From NCBI RefSeq assembly GCF_001695855.1, contig NZ_MBSS01000045.1, positions 124,001 to 188,000 of the forward strand: a stretch of 64,000 bases of DNA, given 5' to 3'. Positions 3,694-62,390 of this stretch are shown here, in pieces. Every line of letters begins with the position of its first letter. Position 1 is the stretch's first letter. The DNA is from Ensifer sp. LC163 (GTDB taxonomy: Bacteria > Pseudomonadota > Alphaproteobacteria > Rhizobiales > Rhizobiaceae). The notes beneath the pieces were generated by a model that was given only the letters and a program-made list of their open reading frames with translations, ran no database searches and had not been told where the DNA came from. Position numbers and translations under genes: made by a program.

Positions 3694-3854
3694 GCTGCCT
3701 CACCTCCTGCGACGAGCTTCCCTTGAAGGCAGAACCCGACATGCTCACCTAATCACGCAATCGCGGAAAAACACAACCATTCGATCGCTAGCACCACGAT
3801 TGCCGCTGCCAGGATTTGACGGCTTGCGCGATGCGCATATCTTCCATGCGGATA

Positions 3855-3869
3855 TTGCACTGCACAAAT
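3855..3869. promoter_or_regulatory. candidate regulator-binding motif TTGCACTGCACAAAT
   Basis: An imperfect dyad lies in the gap upstream of the sRNA pair. Its last 14 bases recur exactly at 5087-5100, upstream of the second DUF1127 gene. TTGnnCnGnnCAA is symmetrical enough for a LysR-type dimer. In Brucella the LysR regulator VtlR activates an sRNA gene and genes for small DUF1127 proteins, so a VtlR/LsrB-type site is a reasonable guess. The regulator assignment is inference. A possible -10 (CTATGT) follows at 3883. The rest of 3694-3990 has no recognisable gene. Confidence 0.35.
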
Positions 3870-3990
3870 CGATTTAAACATCCTATGTTCAGATCATCAG
3901 AGGCGAACGAAGGCAAACAGCCAACCGGACGCCCGCGGCGATGGTCAGCCGCCCCGGAGCGCCGGGAAAGACCCGGACGAAAGTTCGATG

Positions 3991-4118
3991 GAATTCGGAG
4001 CGGCGCACTCCTCCTCCCAGCGCCCCTCCGATACGATTGGCAACACTCCTCCTCCCAGTTGCCAATCACCTTCAATGACGCTCGCTGGACCTCCTCCCCC
4101 AGCGGGCGTTATTCTTTT
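3991..4118 (+). ncRNA. alpha-r14/NfeR1-like (cuckoo-type) sRNA, copy 1
   Basis: Three consecutive hairpins each present CCTCCTCCC, an anti-Shine-Dalgarno sequence, in the loop. Hairpin 1 has arms 3996-4006 and 4020-4030 (one mismatch) and loop ACTCCTCCTCCCA. Hairpin 2 has a perfect 10-bp stem, 4035-4044 with 4058-4067, and the same loop. Hairpin 3 has arms 4078-4088 and 4099-4109, loop ACCTCCTCCC, and runs into TTATTCTTTT, so it also serves as terminator. This matches the described rhizobial NfeR1 (Smr14C2) design of three unpaired anti-SD motifs in about 123 nt, which to my recollection also lies near tig. Such RNAs are expected to block translation starts of many mRNAs. The 5' end is estimated. 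Confidence 0.88.
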
Positions 4119-4269
4119 CAGGCTCCCTTTTGTTTATCGCAGTTGATCGAGGCGTTTGCACAATCTTTGCGCAGATTTCGCTCAATCTGACACTGAGATA
4201 TGTTCTAGGCGCATAGGTGCCATGAAGCATCCGATCTACCCAAATTCGGCAGACTGAACTATCTTCAAC

Positions 4270-4398
4270 TCATCGATCGGGGCGGCGCACTCCTCCTCCC
4301 AGCGCCCCTCGATTTGGATCGGCAGCACTCCTCCTCCCAGTTGCCGATCAGAACAAAACGACGCTCGCTGGACCTCCTCCCCCAGCGGGCGTTGTTTG
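4270..4398 (+). ncRNA. alpha-r14/NfeR1-like (cuckoo-type) sRNA, copy 2
   Basis: This is a tandem paralogue of the sRNA at 3991-4118 with the same three-hairpin plan. Hairpin 1 arms are about 4280-4288 and 4302-4310, loop ACTCCTCCTCCCA. Hairpin 2 arms are 4317-4326 and 4340-4349, with one G-U pair and the same loop. Hairpin 3 arms are 4361-4371 and 4382-4392; the flanking CAAAACG/CGTTGTTT lengthens the stem and supplies the terminator U-tract. The hairpin-3 core is identical in both copies. Stems vary with compensating changes while loops are fixed, which supports an RNA rather than a coding signal. CTATCT at 4258-4263 could be its -10 box. Confidence 0.88.
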
Positions 4399-4627
4399 AT
4401 TCAGCCAGCCCCTTCTCTCTACAATCTCTGCGCCACGCCACCGGCTCGGTGGCGGCATTGGGCGCACGGCCCGGGCACAGCGGCCATAGAGAGGCTTGCA
4501 AGAGCTGCATGGGTGCGATGCAGCATTATCTCTGTAACTTCTGCTCAAAACGATTATATTCCGGGACATCAGATGATGGCCAGCAGAGAGATAAGCGCTG
4601 GCAAACGACCCTAGAAAGGATAGGATC

Positions 4628-4771
4628 ATGAACCTCGCACGCTCTTTCAACAATTGGCGCAAGTATCGTCAGACCTGCAACGAACTCGGCCGCATGAGCG
4701 ACCGTGAACTGAGCGACCTCGGCATCGGCCGCGGCGACATCGCCTACGTTGCACGTCAGGCCATCAAGTAA
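4628..4771 (+). CDS. DUF1127 small protein 1
   Basis: A 47-aa basic protein whose second half is the DUF1127 signature: LGRMSDRELSDLGIGRGDI (about residues 20-38). The ATG is preceded by GAAAGGATAGGATC, and a strong terminator follows at 4813-4844. It lies downstream of two anti-SD sRNA genes on the same strand. In Rhodobacter the related CcsR (cuckoo) sRNAs are co-transcribed with a DUF1127 protein, CcaF1, which binds RNA and affects sRNA processing. A similar role here is inference. A second 47-aa DUF1127 gene lies 440 bp further on. Confidence 0.9.
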   Translation: MNLARSFNNWRKYRQTCNELGRMSDRELSDLGIGRGDIAYVARQAIK

Positions 4772-4812
4772 TTCCAGGAGCGCTGCTTCGCGCAGCGCGC
4801 CGGACATTACCA

Positions 4813-4844
4813 ACGCCCTCCGGTTCATTCCGGGGGGCGTTTTT
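4813..4844 (+). terminator. Rho-independent terminator after DUF1127 gene 1
   Basis: Stem ACGCCCTCCGG/CCGGGGGGCGT with loop TTCATT is followed by TTTTT on the plus strand, 42 bp after the DUF1127 stop codon. Between here and 5212 there is no recognisable gene, only the repeated TGCACTGCACAAAT motif. Confidence 0.85.
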
Positions 4845-5086
4845 CGTTGTCGAAGTACCGGGCCAATTCGCTTTCGCAACTGCGAAAGCGCGCCGCCGAT
4901 CCGGAACCGCGCACGGCCAAGCAATCTTGTTCGGATTCAAGCGGGCACCACCGGCAACACCTTCGGTCATCCACGCGGAAAATGACACAATTACAAATCC
5001 TTAACGCGACACATCCGCACTTTAATCAATCTTTAAGTGATGGCGTATTTTCGAGCGGGCGCAAATCTTGCCCAGCAATTTGGCGA

Positions 5087-5100
5087 TGCACTGCACAAAT
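5087..5100. promoter_or_regulatory. second copy of the TGCACTGCACAAAT motif
   Basis: This 14-base sequence is identical to 3856-3869. It sits 113 bp before the start codon of the second DUF1127 gene, a usual distance for an activator site plus leader. Sharing of the motif between the sRNA and DUF1127 upstream regions suggests joint control; the regulator is not known from sequence. Confidence 0.35.
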
Positions 5101-5212
5101 GCATAGCAGCTGCATTTTCTTTGCACTCCACCTTCTAATTAGACAAGCGTATAAGAACCTCAACGACGCAGACAGATGGCTGTCGCGACAAACCGCTCTT
5201 GAGGAAAAAGTC

Positions 5213-5356
5213 ATGAACCCGATTCGTATCGCAAAAAGCTGGATCAACTACCGCCGCACCGTCAGCGAGCTCGGCAACCTGTCGAACCACGCTCTGAATG
5301 ATATCGGCATCACCCGCTACGATATCCGCAACATTGCATCGCGTTCCTTCCGTTAA
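5213..5356 (+). CDS. DUF1127 small protein 2
   Basis: A 47-aa basic protein with the DUF1127 pattern LGNLSNHALNDIGITRYDI (about residues 20-38). It is a paralogue of the product at 4628-4771, of equal length and aligning without gaps. The ATG is preceded by GAGGAAAAAGTC. The frame is open further upstream, but that part has no family similarity and lacks a ribosome site, so the short start is used. It has its own terminator at 5383-5405 and a candidate operator at 5087-5100, so it is probably a separate transcript. Confidence 0.9.
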   Translation: MNPIRIAKSWINYRRTVSELGNLSNHALNDIGITRYDIRNIASRSFR

Positions 5357-62210: not shown

Positions 62211-62390
62211 GCCTTTTCTCCTTTTCCGGTTGAACCTCCGCGAGACGTCGAGCTCATCTTTCGAAAAGCCCACCGGCGGAACGAACCGGATTTCTCCCGG
62301 AACATCCCATGCCTCACGTGTGGAATGGGCAGCCCCTTACCGGCAACTGCCCGACAAATCAAGACTTGAAGTCTGTTTTTGTCATATCGA

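Follow-up and report, generated by a model that had tools for sequence, protein, structure and literature searches.

Earlier reports describe the closest relatives of the locus analyzed here in Sinorhizobium meliloti. Two small RNAs (sRNAs), sm7 and sm7', were predicted in the SMc02051 region in 2008, at which time sm7' was still awaiting detection (PMC2573895). Deep sequencing in 2010 placed both on the same strand, with SmelC398 (217 nt, 1667766-1667982) transcribed first and SmelC397, or NfeR1 (124 nt, 1667491-1667614), following it (PMC2873474). Only one of the six S. meliloti copies was reliably visible on Northern blots under the conditions tested (PMC7143759). NfeR1 silences ntrBC via anti-Shine-Dalgarno (anti-SD) loops; its promoter is printed as CTTAGAC-N17-CTATAT, LsrB activates it by binding TGCA-N6-GCAT at about -72 to -57, and NtrC acts as its repressor (PMC10746234), the NtrC site of NfeR1 being placed at about -116 to -100. 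The Agrobacterium regulator VtlR, which recognizes GCAT-N3-TG-N3-T, is an activator of abcR1 and of the small gene atu1667 (PMC7486931). Finally, CcsR1-4 of Rhodobacter sphaeroides share a transcript with the DUF1127 gene ccaF1 and arise by processing of its mRNA, and the CcaF1 protein aids RNase E in the maturation of CcsR RNAs (PMC10253847).

We analyzed a 64 kb stretch of DNA from Ensifer sp. LC163, hereafter the window, in which an earlier note had proposed two tandem sRNA genes in an arrangement thought to be uncharacterized. The latter view has to be given up, as the published record, as far as accessible, contains the same tandem in S. meliloti (sm7/sm7', SmelC397/SmelC398) and the combination of DUF1127 genes with sRNAs in the CIN1 locus. 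The sRNAs are new members of a family already described, and their locus is known as well; the less expected part is a conserved leader fold on the first copy together with a promoter design shared across the cluster. We consider it likely that the two genes are an old tandem of trans-acting anti-SD repressors under an LsrB-type activator, with the leader most likely contributing to stability or processing.

Results

Two ar14 sRNAs with anti-SD loops next to two DUF1127 genes

The genes of the cluster are as follows.

3990..4114, + strand: sRNA copy 1, ar14 domain with three anti-SD hairpins (RF02344, 119.2 bits; predicted fold)
4272..4397, + strand: sRNA copy 2, ar14 with three anti-SD hairpins, putative NfeR1 counterpart (RF02344, 106.1 bits; predicted fold; order and size as SmelC397)
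4628..4771, + strand: DUF1127a, 47 aa (Pfam PF06568, 60.5 bits)
5213..5356, + strand: DUF1127b, 47 aa (Pfam PF06568, 53.6 bits), with its own conserved upstream region at 5083-5190

Before the sRNA pair, trigger factor, tRNA-Leu, GDYXXLXY and DUF2157 genes lie on the - strand; after DUF2157, the + strand carries the two sRNAs, the two adjoining DUF1127 genes that the earlier note had reported, and a Pfam GIDA gene that we take to be trmFO. The DUF2157 protein shares 91-96% identity with five records among 7 loci compared (four Ensifer/Sinorhizobium and one Rhizobiales isolate), with E. adhaerens SD006 as the best match (96%), and identity falls to 59% and 53% in a Rhizobium and a Pararhizobium. 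Directly 3' of DUF1127a, a terminator-like hairpin with a T-rich tail (4812-4841, + strand) is kept in the genus alignment. Some 100 nt before DUF1127b (5083-5190, + strand, including GCACTGCACAAATGCAT) are almost unchanged in 16/16 genomes of the genus, a conservation exceeding the need of a coding flank, and this region may contain a promoter and a 5' UTR element. Elsewhere in the window, an Rfam rpsB sRNA element (RF01815, 46.4 bits, cut-off 40) is found at 62211-62322 on the - strand.

The window has exactly six occurrences of CCTCCTCCC, each on the + strand and inside 4010-4381; the mean in 100 dinucleotide shuffles was 0.51 with a maximum of 3, and none reached six. Both copies match the ar14 model over its full length and exceed its gathering cut-off (58.8 bits), which bears out the proposed alpha-r14/NfeR1 membership. 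The CcsR1 model (RF02791; two hairpins) yielded 33.2 and 32.2 bits, below its cut-off of 65.3. Both RNAs are predicted to fold into three hairpins with CCTCCTCCC in every loop (z -8.9 for copy 1 and -7.3 for copy 2), and CCUCCUCCC is unpaired in each loop, as in ar14 RNAs. In a MAFFT alignment of 12 copies made without reference to structure, 91.3% of cells were paired and 27/32 pairs showed two-sided change; pairing was as high in no shuffle. By hairpin, just 75.6% of cells were paired in hairpin 1 and 98-100% in hairpins 2 and 3. Among 99 distinct copies, in an alignment that was fitted to the structure, the corresponding values were 95.7% and 31/32. The stems of both sRNAs are under selection for RNA structure.

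The six hairpin loops, three per RNA, and the variation of stems with pairing kept were claimed from the window's letters, and both stand; the loops are also conserved in related genomes, a point whose failure the earlier note had named as refuting. Two further claims hold in part: the 9-mer is the same in all six loops, although the third loops of both copies differ from loops 1 and 2 outside it, and the third hairpins are consistent with the predicted role as terminators of both sRNAs, although a terminator scan permitting loops of at most 8 nt gave no call for them.

The whole genome holds seven ar14 matches, five of them over the cut-off. At two of these loci (L004 and L005, contigs C19 and C23), an extra CTCCTCCC stretch with GAAG/CTTC flanks lies about 40 nt 5' of the ar14 match, which, judged by eye, suggests four-hairpin relatives of SmelA099.

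The tandem is widespread and its copies look old

All 16 genomes of the genus carry a tandem of above-cut-off ar14 genes on one strand, 282-288 nt apart. Beyond the genus, ar14 is present in 30/30 Sinorhizobium-group genomes, and at least 22 of 101 family genomes (100 genera) have two or more ar14 genes within 550 nt on one strand. Gene context was compared in 40 family loci picked among the matches listed, half of them for having tandems and hence not a random sample. DUF1127 was in range in 20/20 of the tandem loci and trmFO lay downstream in 18/20, one of the two exceptions stopping at a contig end; among the 20 further loci, mostly single copy, trmFO was found in 10 and DUF1127 in 13. Two layouts recur, with DUF1127 either 5' of tightly packed sRNAs or, as in the window, 3' of them, and mixed layouts occur in L073, L074, L078, L080 and L106.

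A tree built from 58 copies places the genus's copy 2 among second or third copies from other genera (26 rows, support 87/94, just below the strict mark of the tool). This group contains zero first copies, and the second copies of L074 and L078 fall outside it; strong support was obtained for just 10/47 inner branches. From this tree, copies 1 and 2 look like old paralogues whose identities were retained across genera, and an old duplication without homogenization would be the simplest reading. It could also be argued that two genes merely mean more repressor, the copies being interchangeable and the leader of copy 1 idle. The identical 9-mer loops of both copies agree with such an effect of dosage, but the separate copy lineages across genera do not, nor do the promoter blocks, which differ between the copies; we regard dosage as the sole explanation as unlikely. 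Division of labor, which the earlier note had suggested beside dosage control, would fit better, since each copy stays recognizable from genus to genus and copy 1 alone carries a long structured leader.

Predicted promoters each carry an LsrB/VtlR-type box with constant spacing

Upstream of both sRNAs and of DUF1127a, we located the following elements.

3825..3838, + strand: LsrB/VtlR-type box of copy 1, TGCGCGATGCGCAT (1 mismatch to TGCA-N6-GCAT)
3860..3888, + strand: predicted sigma-70 promoter of copy 1 (-35 CTGCAC 3860-3865, -10 CTATGT 3883-3888; start about 3895)
4201..4214, + strand: LsrB/VtlR-type box of copy 2, TGTTCTAGGCGCAT (2 mismatches)
4259..4264, + strand: -10-like hexamer CTATCT of copy 2 (predicted start about 4271)
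4497..4510, + strand: LsrB/VtlR-type box of DUF1127a, TGCAAGAGCTGCAT (exact in 16/16 genus genomes)
4555..4560, + strand: -10-like hexamer TATATT of DUF1127a (58 nt after the box start)

With at most 1 mismatch, the box of copy 1 recurs at this place in 16/16 genomes of the genus, and the whole copy 1 promoter block is conserved among them. The copy 2 box has at most 1 mismatch in the other 15 of the 16 and two in the window, where it has decayed; the hexamer of copy 2 deviates from the consensus in 2/16. At copy 1, copy 2 and DUF1127a alike, box start and -10-like hexamer are 58 nt apart, in register throughout the genus. In the Sinorhizobium group, 20/24 copy 1 promoters have a box with at most 1 mismatch and 4/24 one with 2 mismatches. 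Compared with the printed NfeR1 promoter, the -10 is present as CTATGT or CTATCT and the -35 matches CTTAGAC in part; for copy 2, a convincing CTTAGAC-type -35 was not found.

Similar boxes precede DUF1127 genes across the family. In the 40 family loci, 45/54 DUF1127 upstream regions contain the box (shuffled mean 11.2, maximum 18) and 25/54 an exact one (shuffled mean 0.56, maximum 2), with TA at offset 59 for 18 of the 25 exact boxes. We take the VtlR-activated gene atu1667 to be a DUF1127 gene as well. For ar14 genes (the same loci plus L013 and L014), the box was found in 34/70 (shuffled mean 8.6). The three strong ar14 copies elsewhere in the genome have zero boxes (at most 1 mismatch) within 300 nt upstream. 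Across the window, matches are near chance: 86 against 67.8 expected for TGCA-N6-GCAT (at most 1 mismatch), 11 against 8.8 for the VtlR core GCAT-N3-TG-N3-T and 14 against 16.4 for ACTGCACAAATGC (at most 3 mismatches). The case for the boxes depends on position and conservation. A longer combined box gave 5 matches in the whole genome, including DUF1127a, and 0 in the control. A LysR-type gene (Pfam HTH_1, LysR_substrate) adjoins a tandem suhB/AbcR-like pair in the same genome, and its call as putative lsrB rests on that context. Given a box with constant spacing before copy 1, before copy 2 and before DUF1127a, the cluster is probably under the control of a single LysR-type activator.

A different origin of the RNAs would be an operon like CIN1/CcsR, with both sRNAs cut from one long DUF1127-containing transcript. 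Processing of CcsR1-4 from the ccaF1 mRNA (PMC10253847) sets a precedent, and several family genomes have DUF1127 tightly 5' of tandem sRNAs. In the window, however, a separate conserved box and -10 precede each unit and a 3' hairpin follows each RNA, and in published S. meliloti data the two RNAs appear separately, with lengths of 217 nt and 124 nt; we find such an operon very unlikely here and continue to favor separate promoters with a common activator.

Copy 1 carries a conserved leader with a predicted pseudoknot

The earlier note had let copy 1 begin at 3991. The sole conserved copy 1 promoter instead points to a probable start near 3895, so that about 95 nt would precede the ar14 domain and the RNA would measure about 220 nt; this start was predicted before the comparison with the length of SmelC398. 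The additional segment contains the elements below, each derived from alignment and pair counts.

3895..3989, + strand: structured leader of copy 1 (SmelC398 being 217 nt long)
3935-3939/3948-3952, + strand: leader stem P1
3953-3957/3962-3966, + strand: leader stem P2
3974-3978/3984-3988, + strand: leader stem P3
3943-3946 with 3970-3973, + strand: leader pseudoknot, GGUC in the P1 loop with GACC

For pair counts, 37 distinct leaders from two genera were aligned by MAFFT without structure. They came from 44 loci in which a copy 1 promoter was present, each set of identical cores being entered once, and excluded loci of other genera (L013, L014, L071, L072, L075, L077 and L079) and those with a leader missing or short (L145, L152 and L153); L143, L155-L158 and L161 yielded no copy 1 promoter. 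P2, whose register varies between genera, is paired in 7/7 sequences of a same-genus alignment, and scoring of the 37 leaders covers P1, P3 and the pseudoknot.

One may ask whether conservation here concerns RNA at all, or rather DNA (a spacer or promoter), or whether the leader is what is left of a DUF1127 gene. In L106 (genome G013), a DUF1127 gene behind the same promoter block as copy 1 occupies exactly the place of the leader and is followed by the sRNA, so that this locus takes a CIN1-like form there. Parsimony also counts few independent compensatory events in the pseudoknot: a single change from U-A to C-G, reverted one time, within the window's genus and a single change from G-C to A-U within the second genus, the remaining changes being a G-U and misfitting rows. 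For P1, P3 and the pseudoknot together, 7 pairs have two-sided change (shuffled mean 4.1) and the number of pair types is no higher than in shuffles; for the pseudoknot alone, 11 cells changed on both sides (2.2 in shuffles) and the numbers of changed pairs and pair types are not above shuffles. Against a DNA-level explanation, 95.7% of the cells in P1, P3 and the pseudoknot are paired versus 30-43% when the partners are slid, and 95.9% versus 3-55% for the pseudoknot alone, all four pairs of which form in 34/37 rows (exceptions L136, L140 and L159). Moreover, in a third lineage (L013 and L014) the pseudoknot sides are swapped (GACC/GGUC). A DUF1127 relic was sought by comparing 16 leaders with 3 DUF1127 genes (48 tests, 300 shuffles each) and rejected, the lowest p being 0.023 uncorrected and not significant after correction. 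We judge conservation at the DNA level or as a gene remnant rather improbable; the alignments support a conserved leader fold whose pseudoknot covaries.

Other searches delimit this element. Guided by pairing, a search of 24 loci missed L025, L077 and L079 and took the wrong partner for L072; by eye, the pseudoknot pairs in L025, L072 and L077, as do 3/4 pairs in L079. Among 8 leaders tested for folding energy, the window's had z -3.0, two more reached -4.6 and -4.4, and five lay at an unexceptional -1.2 to -2.0. A leader model run with stricter filters on 297 family genomes matched 20 of them at E <= 0.01, and scores of at least 40 bits were confined to just five genomes of the window's genus (its own included) and G054. 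Among 36 loci, the model found the genus leaders well, L071 (24.3 bits) and L072 (19.4 bits) weakly, and the leaders of L013, L014, L076 and L077 not at all. A known Rfam element was ruled out, the best matches in an Rfam search (E 2.2 and 4.2) being far under the cut-offs. A coding ORF (ATG at 3941, 45 aa) was likewise rejected: judged by eye, several relatives lack this ATG, and length differences among leaders are not multiples of three.

In the Sinorhizobium group, 24 loci have a copy 1 promoter; the leader is missing from two of these and shortened in one, and is thus dispensable. These losses also sit well with the idea, set out above, of two genes kept for dosage. In L145 and L152, the copy 1 promoter abuts the sRNA, making them natural leader-less variants. 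The leader of copy 1 would most likely be a stability or processing domain. More doubtful is a switch that would respond to stress, to a ligand or to a protein such as, perhaps, DUF1127, and gate the release or stability of the anti-SD RNA; if it existed, one of two LsrB-driven global repressors would have gained a second, post-transcriptional control.

Discussion

Under the reading that we prefer, both genes would make alpha-r14 (NfeR-type) trans-acting sRNAs with three CCUCCUCCC loops each. By likeness to NfeR1 acting on ntrBC, we infer that these loops pair with Shine-Dalgarno regions in the window's organism, so that translation of many mRNAs would be blocked. One LysR-type activator, presumably LsrB binding to the boxes, would drive copy 1, copy 2 and DUF1127a via their own predicted promoters, and the pseudoknotted leader of about 95 nt would make the supply of copy 1 differ from that of copy 2.

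The cluster joins research on NfeR1/alpha-r14 RNAs, DUF1127 small proteins and LsrB/VtlR regulators, with the prediction of a single activator behind all of it. Different promoters, and a structured leader on one copy alone, offer a testable explanation for the retention of both near-identical repressors, and the leader is a specific, testable element on an RNA that, in the accessible literature, barely goes beyond a table entry. The accessible literature on these RNAs yielded no description of the leader fold or of the cluster-wide promoter design, and an earlier one is possible.

Comparison with known systems

AbcR1/AbcR2 (alpha-r15) beside lsrB are also tandem sRNAs with anti-SD motifs (PMC7143759), and AbcR1 is under LsrB/VtlR (PMC7486931, PMC10746234). 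They differ from the ar14 pair in Rfam family, loops and locus, and a suhB-type AbcR-like pair is present elsewhere in the window's genome. In the CIN1 locus, with CcsR1-4/ccaF1 of R. sphaeroides, published accounts likewise have anti-SD RNAs adjoining small DUF1127 genes, whereas DUF1127 in the window sits downstream with its own predicted promoter. The three hairpins, CCUCCUCCC loops and variable stems described for ar14 (RF02344)/cuckoo RNAs recur in the window; the extra structured leader of copy 1 is not part of the ar14 model. Similarly, the accessible descriptions of SmelC398 contain no mention of a leader fold. The closest system is the S. meliloti tandem of SmelC397/NfeR1 (smrC14, sm7) and SmelC398 (sm7', sra38), reported on one strand in the SMc02051 intergenic region and in the same order as in the window. 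Starts are 368 nt apart there versus about 376 predicted here, and the predicted lengths of about 220 and 127 nt fit those of SmelC398 (217 nt) and SmelC397 (124 nt). Taken with the Sinorhizobium-group loci, this agreement in order and size is what the proposed correspondence rests on, with copy 1 as the putative counterpart of SmelC398 and copy 2 as that of NfeR1.
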